A stretch of DNA of 64,000 bases from Muribaculaceae bacterium (GTDB lineage Bacteria > Bacteroidota > Bacteroidia > Bacteroidales > Muribaculaceae). The stretch lies in assembly GCA_029060725.1 (NCBI GenBank), contig JAIDTL010000038.1, forward strand, positions 1 through 64,000, in the 5' to 3' direction. Shown here one piece after another: positions 30,197 through 64,000 of this stretch. The position numbers were made by a program, and so were the translations under genes. The notes beneath the pieces were generated by a model. The model was not told where the DNA came from, did not search any database, and worked only from the letters and a program-made list of their open reading frames with translations. Position 1 is the stretch's first letter. Each line of letters opens with the position of its first letter.

Positions 30197-32539
30197 ATGA
30201 AAAAACTGACCATCGGCCTGCTGTCGGGACTCATCCTTACAGCCTGCGGCCAGAACAGTGGCTCCGGCTCAAGCAGCCAGGCCATTCCTTCTGACAACGA
30301 CATCGAAAAAAGAGTGAAAGAAATCGTCGGAAACATGACCCTCGAAGACAAGATCGGACAAATGTGCGAGATCGAGATCGGACAGCTCACAGACTACAAA
30401 GCTTCTGCTGAAAACGGCAAGTTCACCCTCGATGCCGCAAAGATGCAGGAAGCATTCGAGAAATACCGTGTCGGTTCCATCCTCAACACTCCGCTCGGAG
30501 AGGCTCAGAGCGTAGAGACTTGGCACTACGTAATCGGAACTATACAGGAGGAATCTATGAAATATATCGGTGTCCCCGATATCTACGGCGTCGACCAGAA
30601 CCACGGCACCACATACACTACCGGTGGCACCATCTTCCCTCAAGAAATCAACATGGCTGCCTCTTTCAACCGCGACCTCGTGCGCGAGGGTGCCACTATA
30701 TGCGCATACGAATCACGCACTTCTTCAATTCCATGGGTATATAATCCCGTGATGGACCTCGGACGCAACCCCGTCTGGAGCCGTATGTGGGAAAGCTTCG
30801 GCGAAGACCCCTACATCAATGGTGCAATGGCTGTGGAAATGGTTAAGGGATATCAAGGCGACGATCCTAACCACGTTGGTCCTCAAAACGTAGCTTGCTG
30901 TCTCAAGCACTATATGGCTTACGGTGTCCCTACTTCAGGCAAAGACCGTACTCCGGCTTCAATAAGCACAATTGACCTACGCGAGAAATTCTTCCAGCCA
31001 TATAAGATGGCTATCCAAGCCGGAGCCCTATCGGTAATGGTCAATTCAGGTATCGTAAACGGCATCCCATTCCATGCTAACCATGAAATGCTGACAGTTT
31101 GGCTCAAGGAGCAGCTCAACTGGGACGGTATGATCGTCACTGACTGGGCTGACATCCACAACATCTGGAAACGCGACAAGGTTGCAGCCGACTATAAGGA
31201 GGCTATCATGATGGCTATCAACGCCGGTATCGATATGTCGATGACCCCTTACGATATGGAATTCTGCACTCTGCTTAAGGAACTCGTGGAAGAAGGCAAA
31301 GTGTCACAGGCTCGTATCGACGATGCTACTGAACGTATCATCCGCCTGAAACTCCGCCTCGGACTCTTCGAGACCCCAACAATGAACCCTGCAGACTATC
31401 CCAACTTCGGCAGCGAAGCCCATGCACTAAAGGCTCTTGACCTCGCAGCTGAAAGTGAAATTCTGCTCAAAAACGAAGGCAATATCCTCCCGATAGCTCA
31501 AGGTAAGAAAATTCTCGTCACCGGTCCCAACGCCAACTCTATGCGTTCGCTCAACGGCGGCTGGAGCTACAAGTGGCAAGGTAGTGACGATCCTAAATTC
31601 CACGACCAGTATAACACCATCTACGAAGCGATGCGCCTGATCTATGGTGACTCCAACGTGAAACTCGAACAGGGCATGGACTACAACCCTGAAGCGTGGG
31701 AATCTGAAATCAACATTCGCATTCAGGCTGCCGTAGCCGCTGCCCGTAGCGTCGATGTAATCGTGGCTTGCGTAGGTGAAAACTCCTACTGCGAAACTCC
31801 CGGCAACACAAATGATCTCCACCTTTCCGCCAACCAGACTGCTCTCGTAAAGGCTCTCGCAGCTACAGGCAAGCCTATCGTGCTCGTACTCAACGAAGGT
31901 CGTCCTCGCATCATCCGCGAGATCGAACCTCTTGCATCTGCAGTTATCGACGTAATGCTTCCCGGAAACTACGGCGGCGACGCCCTTGCAGAGCTCCTAT
32001 CAGGCAAGCGCAACTTCAGTGGCAAGCTCCCCTTCACTTATCCTAAATGGATCAATGCTCTTGCCACTTACGACCACAAGCCATGCGAAACTGTGCCCAC
32101 AATGGAAGGTGCCTACAACTACAGCGCTGACATCGACGTGCAGTGGCCATTCGGCTTCGGCATGAGCTATACTACATTTGAATACTCCGATATCTCTATC
32201 GACAAGACCGAGTTCACACCTGCCGACGAGCTCAAGGTTTCAGTCAACGTCAAGAATACCGGCAGCGTGGAAGGCAAAGAAGCTGTAATCTTCTACAGCA
32301 GCGACCTCGTGGCATCAGTTACTCCCGACGTGCGTAGGGTTCGTGGCTTCGACAAAATCAACCTCAAGCCCGGCGAAAGCAAGATAGTAGAATTCACAAT
32401 CCCGGCATCCGATCTCGCTTTCGTAGGTCAGGACGGCAAGTGGACAATCGAAAAAGGCGAATTCCAATTCACCCTCGGCAATCAGAAAGTGAAAGCCTCC
32501 TGCACCGAAACAAAAGTCTGGGACACCCCCAACATCTGA
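30197..32539 (+). CDS. GH3 beta-glucosidase-type lipoprotein
   Basis: A 780-residue lipoprotein with lipobox LTAC (Cys near residue 17) and a Ser/Gly-rich linker. The GH3 N-terminal barrel has GVDQNHGTTY, ASFNRDLVREGA, MWESFGEDP and the nucleophile motif VTDWADI with Asp316. The C-terminal sandwich has DVIVACVGENSYCETPG, followed by a fibronectin-III-like end (VKNTGSVEGKEAVIFYSSDL). GH3 enzymes remove glucose or xylose from oligosaccharide ends, and lipidation implies an outer-membrane or periplasmic site. It is transcribed alone, with a TAAATTTG box about 40 bases upstream. The sugar specificity cannot be read from the sequence. Confidence 0.93.
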   Translation: MKKLTIGLLSGLILTACGQNSGSGSSSQAIPSDNDIEKRVKEIVGNMTLEDKIGQMCEIEIGQLTDYKASAENGKFTLDAAKMQEAFEKYRVGSILNTPLGEAQSVETWHYVIGTIQEESMKYIGVPDIYGVDQNHGTTYTTGGTIFPQEINMAASFNRDLVREGATICAYESRTSSIPWVYNPVMDLGRNPVWSRMWESFGEDPYINGAMAVEMVKGYQGDDPNHVGPQNVACCLKHYMAYGVPTSGKDRTPASISTIDLREKFFQPYKMAIQAGALSVMVNSGIVNGIPFHANHEMLTVWLKEQLNWDGMIVTDWADIHNIWKRDKVAADYKEAIMMAINAGIDMSMTPYDMEFCTLLKELVEEGKVSQARIDDATERIIRLKLRLGLFETPTMNPADYPNFGSEAHALKALDLAAESEILLKNEGNILPIAQGKKILVTGPNANSMRSLNGGWSYKWQGSDDPKFHDQYNTIYEAMRLIYGDSNVKLEQGMDYNPEAWESEINIRIQAAVAAARSVDVIVACVGENSYCETPGNTNDLHLSANQTALVKALAATGKPIVLVLNEGRPRIIREIEPLASAVIDVMLPGNYGGDALAELLSGKRNFSGKLPFTYPKWINALATYDHKPCETVPTMEGAYNYSADIDVQWPFGFGMSYTTFEYSDISIDKTEFTPADELKVSVNVKNTGSVEGKEAVIFYSSDLVASVTPDVRRVRGFDKINLKPGESKIVEFTIPASDLAFVGQDGKWTIEKGEFQFTLGNQKVKASCTETKVWDTPNI

Positions 32540-32655
32540 CAATATGGAAAGGAGGCTTTTCTATATGGAAGGGAGGCTTTCCAGCCTCCCCCATATCAAA
32601 ATAAAAACTCGTAAATATGCAAGGGGAGGCAGGATAGCCTCCCCTTATTTCATTG

Positions 32656-32696
32656 TCGGTGTTTTCGGTTAGGTGGCGGAGCCAAGGGCTCCGCGC
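32656..32696. repeat. Palindromic repeat of the TCGGTGTTTTCGGTT family
   Basis: TCGGTGTTTTCGGTTAGGTG is followed by a GCGGAGCC/GGGCTCCGC hairpin. It lies between two convergent genes and probably acts as their shared terminator. Related copies are at 8221, 37559, 41443, 46264 and 53569. Confidence 0.7.
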
Positions 32697-51686: not shown

Positions 51687-52301
51687 ATGAAAACCAGAAA
51701 AAGCATAGACACCGAACAACTCCAACGACTCAAAGAGGAAGTCGAACGCCGACTCCCTTTTCCTATAAAGTCTCCCGACGACTATTCCCGTCTCTCCGAC
51801 CTCCTAAAAGACGAAGGTTGCGGCACAGTCAGCGCCACAACCCTCAAAAGAATATGGGGATACATCTCTGACGTCGGTTCCGACTACCGCCCCAATGCCT
51901 ATACCATAACTGCACTCTGCCGCCTTATAGGATTCAGAGACATTGAAGAGTTCACGGCATCAGACTTCCCCGTCCAGTCACGCGAATACAATGGGACGTT
52001 CGTGGAAAGTCGCAGTCTGCCCAAAGACTCCATTGTGGAGCTGCGATGGCAGCCCAACCGAGTCTGTACCCTGCAGTATCTTGGAAATACCCTGTTCAAA
52101 GTAATCAGTGTGGAAAATTCCACTACTCTGCGCGAAGGTGACGAAGTGGAATGCGGTTGCTTCACGCAACACGCACCCGTATATTTCCCACGCGTATTCC
52201 GCGAAGGATCACACCCCATGACGGCTATAGCAGGTGCCGCTTCCGGAATCACCTTCTCCATTACTGAGCCTGATCCTGAAGCTCCTTCAGATGCCCCATA
52301 A
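51687..52301 (+). CDS. Regulator-like protein of unknown function facing a Ser/Thr kinase
   Basis: A 204-residue protein starting MKTRKSIDTEQLQRLKEEVE. The N-terminal 80 residues are helical and include TVSATTLKRIWGYISDVGSDYRPN and YTITALCRLIGFRDIEEFT, which look like an HTH-type DNA- or protein-binding unit seen in Bacteroidales regulators. The C-terminal half is beta-rich (SIVELRWQPNRVCTLQYLGNTLFKVISV). Its last 41 bases overlap the 3' end of the kinase gene on the other strand. A functional link with the kinase is suggested by conserved-looking arrangement only. Confidence 0.6.
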   Translation: MKTRKSIDTEQLQRLKEEVERRLPFPIKSPDDYSRLSDLLKDEGCGTVSATTLKRIWGYISDVGSDYRPNAYTITALCRLIGFRDIEEFTASDFPVQSREYNGTFVESRSLPKDSIVELRWQPNRVCTLQYLGNTLFKVISVENSTTLREGDEVECGCFTQHAPVYFPRVFREGSHPMTAIAGAASGITFSITEPDPEAPSDAP

Positions 52302-53481
52302 CCTCATCCATCTTCTTATTGGCATCAACCACATATTCCCAATACGTACTGAGATATATGTCTGCCTCCATAGGCTTGTATCCGGCAGCCAGCAGCTCTT
52401 CCAGCAGATGATCGGCTATGTCATGGGCTTTTTGATTCCGCTCTTCTTTCGAATCCTTCCATGCACGCCTATCCCTGTCGAAATATACGTCATATACAGC
52501 TATGGCGCTGTCAAGCATCTGCGTATGCTCATACAATATGTCCCAACCATTCGGACCTTTATCCGATTCTCCGGCATCCACAACTGATACTGTAGATGCT
52601 CCTACCGTATCAGCCGTAGAGACCATATATGTGTCATCCCCAGGCGTGTGGTGGTCCAGTTTAATCCCTGTCAGTTCCTCAAACAATCCTATTACAAGCC
52701 CCAAGACCAACATTACCCCATAGCAAGTCAGCACCCACCACCATAAACCTCTTTTACGTGGCTTATGTCCGGAGTCAAGTATATCTACTGCATCCTGCAT
52801 CGTTAAGCGCTTGTCTGGATTCTCTTTCAGGCATCCATTTCTCAGCTTGCGAAATTTCCTTTCAGGGAGCAGCATTTCCAGTATTCTGCCGAAAGAATAC
52901 ACGTCGGCTCGCGAATCCCCTACGCATGGGCTCTGCTGTTCCGGAGCTCCGAATCCATCCGTGCCAAGCGACTGCTTGTAGATTACAGAGTCCTCACTGT
53001 CCCCAAGCCCGATATCGATTATCTTCGCCTCGTTCCTGCGTGTCACCATGATATTGTCCGGTTTCAAATCCCGGTGCGACACTCCCATCGAATGCATATA
53101 GGCGAGCGCATCCGCTATCTGGCGGGCTATCCCCACCCTATCCTTCTGCGGAATCGACTTATTCTTCCAGAGATAGTCTGCCAGCGTTATCCCATCAATA
53201 TATTCCATTACGATCACCGGTCCGACTGTGGGATGCGTCTCAAAACCATATACCCCTGCAATCCCTGTATGGCAGATCCTGAGACCGAGCGAATACTCCT
53301 TGCGCAACCGTGCAGCCTCCTCCGGATGCGACCGCAACACCTCCGGCAGCCCCTTAAGGATGAAGCGTCGCCCCTCCCTTACCGTAAGCCACAGCAGATT
53401 ACGGGTCCCCCTCCTGAACGGCTCCAGACAATCCCCCGCTATCCCGCCATCAGCCGGCGCTGCCATCGAATTAGGTATCAT
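52261..53481 (-). CDS. Membrane-bound Ser/Thr protein kinase (Hanks type)
   Basis: A 406-residue protein. Kinase features: the beta-3 lysine in FILKGL (Lys43), the helix C glutamate (Glu62), the catalytic loop SHRDLKPDN (136-142), a DIG metal motif in place of DFG (Asp156) and the APE-like GAPEQ (179-182). One transmembrane helix at about 246-266 leads to an extracytoplasmic 140-residue tail rich in acidic and helical segments. The N-lobe lacks a clear glycine-rich loop. Transmembrane bacterial kinases of this type sense outside signals and phosphorylate cytoplasmic targets. The 3' end overlaps the convergent regulator-like gene. Confidence 0.88.
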   Translation of the reverse strand: MIPNSMAAPADGGIAGDCLEPFRRGTRNLLWLTVREGRRFILKGLPEVLRSHPEEAARLRKEYSLGLRICHTGIAGVYGFETHPTVGPVIVMEYIDGITLADYLWKNKSIPQKDRVGIARQIADALAYMHSMGVSHRDLKPDNIMVTRRNEAKIIDIGLGDSEDSVIYKQSLGTDGFGAPEQQSPCVGDSRADVYSFGRILEMLLPERKFRKLRNGCLKENPDKRLTMQDAVDILDSGHKPRKRGLWWWVLTCYGVMLVLGLVIGLFEELTGIKLDHHTPGDDTYMVSTADTVGASTVSVVDAGESDKGPNGWDILYEHTQMLDSAIAVYDVYFDRDRRAWKDSKEERNQKAHDIADHLLEELLAAGYKPMEADIYLSTYWEYVVDANKKMDEVMGHLKELQDQAQ

Positions 53482-61077: not shown

Positions 61078-61173
61078 TTTGTTTGGCCATTGGTGTTTTA
61101 TAGCCTTAAACAGCCTAGTTTGTTTGGCCAAAATGCATCATTTTCTTAGAAAATCATTAGTTTGTTTGGCCAA
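61078..61173 (+). repeat. Three direct repeats of TTTGTTTGGCCA before the recombinase
   Basis: TTTGTTTGGCCA lies at about 61079, 61120 and 61160, about 40 bases apart. The last two copies are extended to TAGTTTGTTTGGCCAAAA. A TATCTTTG box follows at 61181-61188. They may be recombinase- or repressor-binding sites. Confidence 0.72.
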
Positions 61174-61245
61174 AAATCATTATCTTTGCAGAGGTTTGTG
61201 AGTATTGACAAATTTTTAATAATTATCCTCAAAAATCCTCTCAAA

Positions 61246-62601
61246 ATGGGTAGACCAAAAAGATTATATCCTCTAGGACGTTATCGCCTTCGTATTCGGG
61301 GGCGGGTTGATAAGGAGAAACTGTACCTGATAGAACTTGAATATACATGGAATCGCCAAGTCATCAGGAGGGGTATGAATATTTTTTCCAGAATTGATGA
61401 TTGGAATCAAAATGCGAATCAAGGCAGAGGCGCGGTTAGACCTTCTTATGGTCCTGAAGCCAAACGAATCAATGGTATTCTTTTGGCACGTGTTGATAAG
61501 ATAGATTCGTTGCTTGCAGAATATCAACAGAAATTCCCAGATCAACTTACATGTGAGTTGATAAATGATTTTCTCCAAGATAAGCCGGTGACTCGTGCAG
61601 ATAAGGGAAAGGATTTGGTAGAATTTGTCCAAGAAAGATTAGATTCAGACTATTCTCGTAATCGTATCGGAAGAAGTCGATATGAAAATGGGAAAAGCAG
61701 CTTGAATATCTTTAAGATGTTCTTGTTATCTACAAATAGAGGCACATATAAACCTGATGGTATATATGTGGGCGATTTGTCTGTAGAGTTATTAGATGAG
61801 TATATAGAGTGGAGGCGGAACATCAAAAAGAACAGTGATGGAACGATAAACCATGCACTTACTCCGATTCTAAAGGCTTGTTCGTATGCTGCAGAATTGA
61901 AGATGATAGATGTGGCTGTCAATGCAAGGATTCAGGATATGCGAATTAATCCTAAGTTGCTGTTATCTCAAGATGATTCGGAGTTTGATGATAAGAATCT
62001 TTCAGCCGAGGAACTACATAAACTTATTTCATATTATCAAGATTGTAGAGAGCCTCGTAGAAGGGAGTTCATTGAAATGTTTCTATTCGCATTTCATGCA
62101 TGTGGTCTGCGTATAGTTGACATTATGACATTGCAATGGAATCATATTGATTTTAACAAGAGGGAGCTAAGAAAGATAATGATTAAAACTAACAAGCGTC
62201 ACGTAATTCCTCTTTCGGAGCCAGCCATAAACATTCTTAAGGAGTGGAAAATAAAAAGTACTGGTGGAAAATATGTTTTCAATTTGATAAAGGAGGACAT
62301 AGATATAGATAATGATGAAGCTCTTTATAAGCTACGTAATAATGTTACTAAGTGTATCAATCAATCTCTTGTAGTGGTTGGAGAACAGATTAAGTTAAAC
62401 TTTAATCTGACAATGCATGTAGCTCGCCATACCTTCGCCGTCTTCGCTTTAAATAAGGGCTTGTCTATGTCTGTTGTTAGTAGGCTTCTTGGCCATGGAA
62501 GTACTGATATAACTGAAAAAGTATACGCTCGATTCTTACCTGAAACATTGTCTTCAGAACTTGGTCGTCTTCAAAGTGATTTTTCAAAGTTTACATTATA
62601 A
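61246..62601 (+). CDS. Tyrosine recombinase (phage/conjugative-element integrase type)
   Basis: A 451-residue protein from ATG 61246 (MGRPKRLYPLGRYRLRIRG). An in-frame ATG at 61162 is rejected because it lies inside the upstream repeats and promoter. An N-terminal arm-binding domain (to about 100) and a SAM-like core-binding domain (120-225) precede the catalytic domain with Arg289 (CGLRIVDI), His391 and Arg394 (HVARHTF), His417 (LGHGST) and Tyr427 (KVYARF), so all key residues are present. The size and N-terminal domain are those of Bacteroidetes element integrases. It stands directly upstream of the RiPP candidate and may mark one end of a mobile element. Confidence 0.92.
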   Translation: MGRPKRLYPLGRYRLRIRGRVDKEKLYLIELEYTWNRQVIRRGMNIFSRIDDWNQNANQGRGAVRPSYGPEAKRINGILLARVDKIDSLLAEYQQKFPDQLTCELINDFLQDKPVTRADKGKDLVEFVQERLDSDYSRNRIGRSRYENGKSSLNIFKMFLLSTNRGTYKPDGIYVGDLSVELLDEYIEWRRNIKKNSDGTINHALTPILKACSYAAELKMIDVAVNARIQDMRINPKLLLSQDDSEFDDKNLSAEELHKLISYYQDCREPRRREFIEMFLFAFHACGLRIVDIMTLQWNHIDFNKRELRKIMIKTNKRHVIPLSEPAINILKEWKIKSTGGKYVFNLIKEDIDIDNDEALYKLRNNVTKCINQSLVVVGEQIKLNFNLTMHVARHTFAVFALNKGLSMSVVSRLLGHGSTDITEKVYARFLPETLSSELGRLQSDFSKFTL

Positions 62602-62939: not shown

Positions 62940-62971
62940 TTTGGAGTATTAGAAAATATTTATTAATTTTG
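62940..62971 (+). promoter_or_regulatory. Promoter of the peptide-radical SAM locus
   Basis: TTTG (62940-62943), 20 bases, TAATTTTG (62964-62971), an exact match 27 bases before the peptide ATG. Confidence 0.82.
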
Positions 62972-62998
62972 CATAATAACTATAACGTAAATTTAATT

Positions 62999-63112
62999 AT
63001 GGATTATCAGAAACCGACAGTTTTAGTAAAAAGCAGTTTTCAGATGGCTGACTGCTCGAAGAAACCATGTGGACGCCCTTCGTGTACTACGAAGTCTTCT
63101 GGTCGACATTAA
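62999..63112 (+). CDS. Candidate RiPP precursor peptide, three cysteines
   Basis: A 37-residue peptide: MDYQKPTVLVKSSFQMAD as a leader-like part, then CSKKPCGRPSCTTKSSGRH. The cysteines at 19, 24 and 29 are evenly spaced (CX4CX4C) in a small basic core, a pattern expected for thioether- or disulfide-type modification. It has its own exact promoter, a stem-loop directly after the stop (63126-63149) and a radical SAM enzyme gene 50 bases downstream. Size, position, cysteine pattern and neighbour all fit a ribosomally made, post-translationally modified peptide. No known precursor family is recognised, so the product class is open. Confidence 0.72.
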   Translation: MDYQKPTVLVKSSFQMADCSKKPCGRPSCTTKSSGRH

Positions 63113-63125
63113 CTACTTAAGACGA

Positions 63126-63149
63126 GTGGCAGCAATCTTAAGCTGCCGC
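63126..63149 (+). terminator. Stem-loop between precursor and radical SAM genes
   Basis: GTGGCAGC and GCTGCCGC form an 8-bp stem (one G-T pair) with an eight-base loop and a T-rich tail. Such a partial terminator would give more precursor than enzyme mRNA. Confidence 0.65.
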
Positions 63150-63162
63150 TTCTATTTATTTA

Positions 63163-64000
63163 ATGGATATGTATTTTAGTAAACTTCCTTACATTATATA
63201 TAGAGATTATCCAAATTACGGTTATCTTACTGATAATCGCAACTATGGTTATGACACGAAATCAAAAAGCTGTAAAAAAGTAGGTGACAGGATCTTATCA
63301 AAATCCGGTAGTATCTTCTATTCTATATTAACAGAGCACCCTCAGTCATTGCTCCAAATATCCAGGAGGTTGTTGCGTCTTTTCCCAAAGGCTTCTTTAG
63401 AAGAAATTCAAGAAGATGCAAAAACATTTTATTCTGACTTATCATACGATGGATTCATCAAGGTGAGTAAAGAACCTGATAGAATACAAGAAGAACCTAT
63501 TTTTTCATATAATAATTTGTCTCCGTATATACTCAAGAAGACTCTTACTGAAGAAAATCCTTCTGTATTTGATAGTAAAGAGTTTACTCATCACCGTTTA
63601 TCTAGGGTGCATCTATGCATATCTGAGCGATGCAACGAACACTGCGTTCATTGTTACTTTCCTGAATCTTTAAGGAACCATACAATGACCAAAGATCTCT
63701 TTTTGATGGTATTAGATCAATGTATAAAGAATCGAATATTAAATATAACACTTAGTGGAGGGGAACCGATGCTTAATAAAAATTTAGGATTCTTTATTCA
63801 GAAATGCCGTGAAAATAATTTCTCAATTAATGTTTTATCCAATCTTACATTATTGACCGACTCGCTCATTAAGGAATTTAAAGCCACTCCCCTTTTGAGT
63901 GTTCAGACTTCCTTGTATTCAATGGATCCTGTCATTCATGACTCAATTACAAAAGTGAACGGAAGTTTCGAGAAAACAAAACAGGCTATAAAAATCCTTC
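63163..64000 (+). CDS. Radical SAM peptide maturase with N-terminal RRE-like domain (cut by window edge)
   Basis: The first 279 residues are in the window. Residues about 10-102 (YIIYRDYPNYGYLTDN, FYSILTEHPQSLLQISRRLL, EEIQEDAKTFYSDLSYDGFI) look like a PqqD-type winged-helix RiPP recognition element. The radical SAM core has Cys157, Cys161 and Cys164 (CNEHCVHCYF) and TLSGGEP (196-202), followed by SINVLSNLTLL and VQTSLYSMDPVIHD, typical of SPASM/twitch maturases. The C-terminal auxiliary cluster region is outside the window. Fusion of the recognition domain to the enzyme and the small cysteine peptide just upstream point to RiPP maturation. Confidence 0.85.
   Translation, partial: MDMYFSKLPYIIYRDYPNYGYLTDNRNYGYDTKSKSCKKVGDRILSKSGSIFYSILTEHPQSLLQISRRLLRLFPKASLEEIQEDAKTFYSDLSYDGFIKVSKEPDRIQEEPIFSYNNLSPYILKKTLTEENPSVFDSKEFTHHRLSRVHLCISERCNEHCVHCYFPESLRNHTMTKDLFLMVLDQCIKNRILNITLSGGEPMLNKNLGFFIQKCRENNFSINVLSNLTLLTDSLIKEFKATPLLSVQTSLYSMDPVIHDSITKVNGSFEKTKQAIKIL

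Follow-up and report, generated by a model that had tools for sequence, protein, structure and literature searches.

A precursor-maturase cassette in a Muribaculaceae genome that probably belongs to an undescribed, mobile family of radical SAM RiPPs

Radical SAM RiPPs usually have transport and processing genes and variable cores. Among the described systems, SuiB/SuiA, in which the streptide link joins Lys and Trp by a carbon-carbon bond, resembles the locus reported here in its N-terminal RRE, radical SAM core and SPASM domain, and SuiB was the top Foldseek match of a relative's model (residues 2-457). However, identity with SuiB is 14-18%, and Trp, Phe or Tyr follows the first core Cys in none of 60 class I-III peptides (classes as described below). 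The sactipeptide and ranthipeptide maturases CteB and SkfB are 18-20% identical, but the precursor here matched no Pfam model (E ≤ 1) and no NCBIfam model (E ≤ 1, and E ≤ 10 for its relatives), which agrees with the first-pass annotation (made by a model from the letters alone), where it had been placed outside the known precursor families. Against the model of the PapB-type ranthipeptide maturases (NF047865) the enzyme scored 50 bits and fell short of the cut-off of 340. The name of the Cys-every-fifth maturase CefB (NF038107) suggests a Cys-x4-Cys spacing like that of our peptide, although the Cys spacing varies in the relatives found here; with a cut-off of 600 bits, this model gave five matches at E ≤ 1e-3 in the same genome, none of them over the cut-off, and our enzyme was not among them. 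No cut-off of a curated NCBIfam maturase model was reached among the best 25 of 70 matches of the enzyme (top 97.2 versus 500 bits).

Another group of known proteins concerns one branch of the relatives. DrrC, Ecm16 and MtrX, the UvrA-like self-resistance proteins, belong to polyketide or nonribosomal products, and the protein of the Bacillota branch is like them in being UvrA-like and standing in a presumed biosynthetic operon. According to PMC10413001, DrrC and Ecm16 lack the UvrB-binding domain, and the RiPP class is listed among 642 clusters with uvrA-like genes, so a link between UvrA and RiPPs is as such not new. A study of RiPP mining in Bacteroidales (PMC10352776) stresses GG-motif peptides with peptidase-containing transporters, systems unlike the cassette here, and neither "GRP" nor "UvrA" occurs in its main text. 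Since lanthipeptide genes have been studied together with defence systems (PMC12715929), the association of RiPP genes with defence genes is in itself no novelty either. Literature on radical SAM enzymes with RiPP, UvrA, excinuclease, amidohydrolase, AT-hook, defence island and Cys-every-fifth, accessible in part, gave no description of this peptide-maturase family; coverage of subscription journals was thin, and this is no proof of novelty. What we describe is a precursor-maturase family within the radical SAM RiPPs, real and mobile, which was not matched to a described one.

The window, i.e., the whole stretch of 64,000 nucleotides analysed, is part of contig C103 in a 3.4-Mb draft genome (completeness 86.6) of a Muribaculaceae bacterium. 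The contig extends to 147 kb, and because it runs past position 64,000 the enzyme, cut by the end of the window, could be completed (Table 1). The 37-residue peptide (MDYQKPTVLVKSSFQMADCSKKPCGRPSCTTKSSGRH), the exact promoter, the stem-loop after the stop codon and the downstream enzyme, all reported by the first-pass annotation, were found at the same positions. The gene arrangement expected of a RiPP, a precursor encoded next to its modifying enzyme, is present, and in our view these two genes probably form a cassette of a mobile radical SAM RiPP family that has yet to be described. The second maturase, protease and exporter that had been expected beyond the window did not appear: none of them adjoins the pair, which is followed instead by the metallophosphoesterase-like gene, the orphan (w/o confident relatives) and, on the opposite strand, RND-like efflux genes (named by eye). 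The orphan had no notable match in Pfam, NCBIfam or PADLOC.

Table 1. Features of the locus and its surroundings (window positions unless a contig is named).
Feature	Position	Strand or placement	Basis
Tyrosine recombinase; mobility context, outside the biosynthetic pair	61246..62601	+	Phage_integrase E 7.8e-21
Bacteroidota-type promoter TTTG-N20-TAnnTTTG	62940..62971	+	Exact match; TAATTTTG is the part downstream of N20
Precursor peptide gene, 37 aa	62999..63112	+	ATG at 62999, stop ends at 63112; relatives; profile; codon test on relatives
Core CSKKPCGRPSC in the precursor	63053..63085	+	Alignment, Cys counts, conservation; leader/core boundary putative
Intercistronic hairpin, candidate attenuator or RNA-stability element	63124..63151	+	Fold energy; same-gap hairpins in chosen relatives
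Radical SAM/SPASM enzyme (476 aa, residues 1-279 inside the window)	63163..64000, to contig base 64593	+	ORF, Pfam, Cys alignment
Candidate N-terminal RRE-like (PqqD-like) domain of the enzyme, about residues 1-104	63163..63474	+	Predicted fold
Metallophosphoesterase-like protein, 559 aa	Contig C103 64711-66390 (L004:4712-6391)	Downstream of the pair	Named by eye and from Pfam/NCBIfam
Orphan, 937 aa	Contig C103 66859-69672 (L004:6860-9673)	After the metallophosphoesterase-like gene	

The enzyme has the features of a SPASM-domain radical SAM protein, with Radical_SAM (E 4.9e-22) and SPASM (PF13186, E 3.5e-9, 37.2 bits against a cut-off of 21.5) domains, a CX3CX2C motif at C157-C164 and eight C-terminal Cys residues that are invariant in 78 aligned relatives; the Cys pattern used for this assignment is the one which we take to be that of SPASM proteins. 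The SPASM cysteines, for which a look to the right had been advised, are therefore present. PADLOC matched the enzyme to prokaryotic viperin models only (best 1.2e-16), and these matches span the radical SAM core. The nearest structures to the whole-enzyme model of a relative were SuiB, SkfB, CteB and anSME, with PqqE also among the fold matches. Since the fold search with the full model was filled by matches to the radical SAM core, the N-terminus was folded alone, and its predicted fold matched RRE/PqqD structures, weakly (Foldseek E 0.013), while in VIA an unrelated methyltransferase chain came nearly as high as the RRE matches (10.6). No Pfam model matched this part. On its predicted fold, the N-terminus would be an RRE-like leader-binding domain, as expected of a RiPP enzyme, in line with the PqqD-like domain of the first-pass annotation.

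An alignment-based scan gave 2 viral contigs and 528 genome loci with a relative; the 80 best genome loci were retained together with the viral ones, i.e., 82 loci examined, while single-sequence enzyme scans of the same viral and genome contig sets gave no relative. A related peptide lies on the same strand as the enzyme in 80 of the 82 loci; in the other two, the contig ends 156 and 615 nt 5' of the enzyme, too near to judge. This count is partly by construction, because the profiles were built from the same peptides. Loss of the peptide frame in genomes that keep the enzyme had been named as evidence against the pairing, and the frame is kept with the enzyme at this rate, with L088 holding the peptide as frameshifted pieces only. 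No opposite-strand peptide matches (E < 1e-3) were found in a profile search of the examined loci. The peptide is upstream of the enzyme in 79 of the 80 loci, the exception being L059, a Peptococcaceae UBA6129 contig of 5520 bases with the peptide at its far end. Its two ends share an overlap of 162 bases, which points to a probable circle of about 5.36 kb, in which the peptide would be upstream too; beside peptide and enzyme, the contig carries an ORF of 347 aa and a candidate defence gene with a strong PADLOC match (PDC-S21).

The pairing was also seen in separate searches of whole genomes. Among 295 genomes of the window's order (its own included), the enzyme had 5 matches at E ≤ 1e-40, and the peptide profile had 9 at E ≤ 0.01, of which 4 (E ≤ 1.2e-17, the window's peptide with 1.1e-18 in its own genome) are each beside the enzyme and the other 5 (E 0.006-0.009) are about what chance would give. 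In the fifth genome with the enzyme, the upstream peptide is a divergent one of class IV, which the profile missed, so the proposal that profile and enzyme go together holds with this one exception. In the order of the genome of L061 (G295), both searches matched the same 2 of 295 genomes, with the genes side by side. The peptides of the E. coli and Photobacterium plasmids (see below) are identical as proteins; their DNA has 17 differences in 114 bases, each of them at a third codon position, and their enzymes are 76.6% identical. Over pairs of 24 class I sequences, differences at codon positions 1, 2 and 3 numbered 1867, 1254 and 4765; these sequences had been picked for their length and for the presence of PSGRPC, a motif that predetermines 6 of 12 core positions. 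The peptide-enzyme pairing and the plasmid differences confined to third positions exceed chance, and the codon pattern shows purifying selection; the peptide is a genuine gene. L028, from a draft genome, is a near-copy of the L015 cassette with an intact peptide and a disrupted enzyme frame.

The peptides fall into four classes, with taxa taken mostly from draft genomes that may include misbinned contigs. Members of class I (MAECRPNSKPSGRPCNPP...) were found in Bacteroidota, Pseudomonadota, Thermodesulfobacteriota, Spirochaetota and Bacillota; class II (MADCSKKPCGRPSC...), to which the window belongs, in Bacteroidales; class III (CGDGPCGRPC...) in Bacillota and one Synergistota locus; and class IV (AAGCP...C..C) mostly in Spirochaetota and Bacteroidota. 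The core signature of the family, from the alignment, is C-x(n)-P-[S/C]-G-R-P-(x)-C. The CX4CX4C core named by the first-pass annotation is there in the window's peptide but does not stand as a rule of the family: among 60 [SC]GRP peptides, 59 could be parsed, and of these 32 read Cys-Ser-Cys, 26 Cys-Cys-Cys and 1 lacks the last Cys, which makes CX4CX4C one local variant. Even L020, from the window's own clade, has Ser in place of the middle Cys. When the classes were placed on the enzyme tree (L022, L076, L087 and L088 labelled "none"; L028, L059, L091 and L092 left out), 7 changes were needed, the label "none" included, versus 42.5 for shuffled labels. For class I, 4 changes suffice, and the window's class forms a single clade of 7 rows with a support of 100/100.

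Conservation was taken as the mean majority fraction per column over all 82 peptides gathered (plasmids and window included; near-copies present, 77 distinct), with classes set by motif. The core was more constant than the leader in class I (0.96 versus 0.72, 32 distinct sequences), class II (0.89 versus 0.75, 6 distinct) and class III (0.94 versus 0.64, 17 distinct), while class IV was reversed (0.47 versus 0.75, 22 distinct). Judged by its sequences, class IV resembles a conventional RiPP, and since its core varies, the family does not make one invariant product. In class I, the majority residue at core positions is found in 26 to 32 of the 32 distinct sequences, and this constancy across five phyla argues that class I has a single conserved product and a single conserved target.

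The promoter-like site, TTTG-N20-TAATTTTG, ends 27 nt before the ATG of the peptide and has the form that we take to be the Bacteroidota-type consensus (TTTG/TAnnTTTG). The exact form with a spacer of 17-23 also lies 5' of the peptide in seven other loci (L015, L016, L017, L021, L027, L028 and L046). Exact TTTG-N19-21-TAnnTTTG sites number 13 on both strands of the window versus 0.89 expected from shuffles, and they are useful for promoter calling in this genome. The hairpin in the peptide-enzyme gap has an energy of -17.7 kcal/mol (z -3.9; equally stable in 1 of 200 dinucleotide shuffles), and the same gap in 18 other loci, chosen by hand and folded, gave z values of -1.4 to -6.7 versus mononucleotide shuffles.

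Among the gene families common to at least 3 of 88 loci there is no protease, and the sole transporter-like one is a MATE-like family (named by eye) 2.5-3.3 kb from the enzyme in 3 loci. Partners were found by class. In class III, a UvrA-like protein of 759 to 803 aa directly follows the enzyme in 18 of 18 loci, with a second radical SAM gene next in 17 of them; such a second maturase was seen in the Bacillota branch only. Genome G311 likewise has the UvrA-like protein, and none was found in the DNA fetched for the other 64 loci (tblastn E ≤ 1e-20). The copy of L061 has the UvrA DNA-binding domain and skips canonical residues of about 139-275, presumably the UvrB-binding region. In four class III hosts, the match between the copy and the UvrA model begins only at position 258-265; all four also encode a full-length UvrA. 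The Bacillota branch therefore has the architecture of UvrA-like self-resistance (no UvrB-binding region, a place beside biosynthetic genes, canonical UvrA elsewhere), and this gene is a possible candidate for immunity to a DNA-directed product. Dysgonomonas capnocytophagoides (genome G300, locus L029) has a class I cassette and, on contig C13 at 30840-32666, another UvrA-like gene, which matches the UvrA model from position 266 only. Of about 24 class IV loci, several of which are cut by contig ends, 15 share a related gene that is amidohydrolase-like by Pfam in the two examined. A cluster of small regulators lies 5' of the enzyme on the minus strand in the class IV loci L075, L082, L083, L090, L092 and L094, the L082 member being a helix-turn-helix protein (Pfam).

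Regarding its spread, 220 of the 72,556 PLSDB plasmid records match the enzyme in some way and 7 over at least 80% of its length; the same 7 carry the peptide, and all are typed as conjugative. Judging from its occurrence in several phyla and on conjugative plasmids, the cassette is mobile. No feature is listed under the precursor in these 7 records (the PLSDB gene table is incomplete), and a survey based on gene tables can therefore overlook it. When complete E. coli genomes were searched for near DNA copies of the cassette from the E. coli plasmid, nothing matched, yet five E. coli plasmids in PLSDB carry it. In phage records the peptide was absent at E ≤ 0.01, and the enzyme matched 13 records, none over 80% of its length. 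Recombinases related to the one upstream in the window cluster in 10 of 88 loci, the window included; among 20 of 33 repeat families listed, no convincing integration site by direct repeats was found around the window's island.

Class I and II cassettes are often near integrases, restriction-modification genes and candidate defence genes, and also have ordinary genes as neighbours. All of ten neighbours that were selected by eye match PADLOC models (nine of the ten belong to the 87 neighbours of classes I and II), e.g., PtuA (9e-158, L016), PDC-S49 (8e-165, L017), PDC-S01 (1e-143, L029) and PDC-S21 (1e-107, L059). Tallies w/o picking gave 387 redundant families for the 87 class I/II neighbours versus 40 for 75 class III/IV neighbours, a rough contrast in which class III/IV is not a neutral control. 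Pfam found integrases (3), N6 methylases (2), AAA_21 (4) and Peptidase_M64 (2) among the 87, with a relaxase in the first member. The defence link rests on relatives, because the three ORFs 3' of the window's enzyme have no PADLOC match (E ≤ 1).

We suggest that the 37-aa peptide is a precursor, of which an N-terminal leader segment (around Y-x-K-P) would be bound by the RRE-like front of the enzyme, which would then modify the core at the C-terminal end, C-x(n)-P-[S/C]-G-R-P-(x)-C, and that the leader may be removed by a host protease. The likeliest modification would be one or two thioether cross-links from the core cysteines, for which we see about an even chance, next to other radical modifications. 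Because class I-III cores are constant, export genes do not recur, many relatives have mobile or defence surroundings and one branch has a UvrA-like partner, the product may have a conserved, possibly intracellular target and be used in conflict, a tentative reading to which we give slightly less than an even chance; that DNA itself is this target is doubtful. What sets the family apart from the usual radical SAM RiPPs is a bare precursor-maturase pair in Bacteroidota, Pseudomonadota, Thermodesulfobacteriota, Spirochaetota and Bacillota, together with an unusually constant core in three of four classes.

The same pair would also fit a classical secreted antimicrobial RiPP, i.e., a bacteriocin of the sactipeptide or ranthipeptide type that borrows a host protease and exporter and differs from our reading in function. 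An architecture like that of SuiB, CteB and SkfB, cores with 2-3 Cys, the variable class IV cores and a UvrA-like protein that could be immunity in Bacillota are consistent with it; however, secreted antimicrobials usually vary in the core, whereas class I-III cores are more constant than their leaders, and the window's pair has no exporter or protease gene beside it, so we consider it rather unlikely. If the product were instead a small peptide-derived cofactor or metal ligand, such as PQQ or mycofactocin, the constancy of the class I-III core over distant hosts would be expected, as would PqqE among the fold matches, but the patchy presence (5/295 and 2/295 genomes) and the mobile context are unlike housekeeping, the cores of class IV are variable, and the families common to at least 3 of 88 loci include no likely user enzyme. 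Such a product seems improbable to us.

It seems more improbable still that the short ORF is a regulatory leader peptide, on which ribosome movement governs the hairpin and the expression of a radical SAM enzyme acting elsewhere. A short ORF and hairpin directly 5' of the enzyme, kept in relatives, would fit an attenuator, and a stalling peptide would likewise show third-position freedom. However, in L025, L057, L084 and L087 a distance of 0.4 to 3.2 kb separates peptide and enzyme, an ORF intervenes in L081-L083, L086 has two peptides, the peptide class follows the enzyme clade, and the enzyme has its predicted RRE-like domain. To return to the precursor reading, its boldest form is that the mature product is a cross-linked DNA-binding peptide whose cysteine links lock its shape, that the Bacillota UvrA-like protein strips it off the chromosome, and that mobile copies beside defence genes act against incoming DNA or competitors. 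The eukaryotic AT-hook core P-R-G-R-P sits in the DNA minor groove and is resembled by P-[S/C]-G-R-P of classes I-III, although four peptides tried gave no AT-hook Pfam match (E ≤ 1). We regard this form as a long shot; if true, it would mean a RiPP with DNA as its target that moved between phyla as two genes, and the UvrA-like partner in Bacillota is a direct, testable hint of such a target.

Two further observations concern the rest of the window. Just 5' of the tyrosine recombinase there are two 29-nt repeats, 86% alike (TAGTTTGTTTGGCCAAAA...), at 61116-61144 and 61158-61186. At 52261-53481 on the minus strand, a predicted 406-aa protein has the eukaryote-like kinase signature HRDLKPDN (read by eye).
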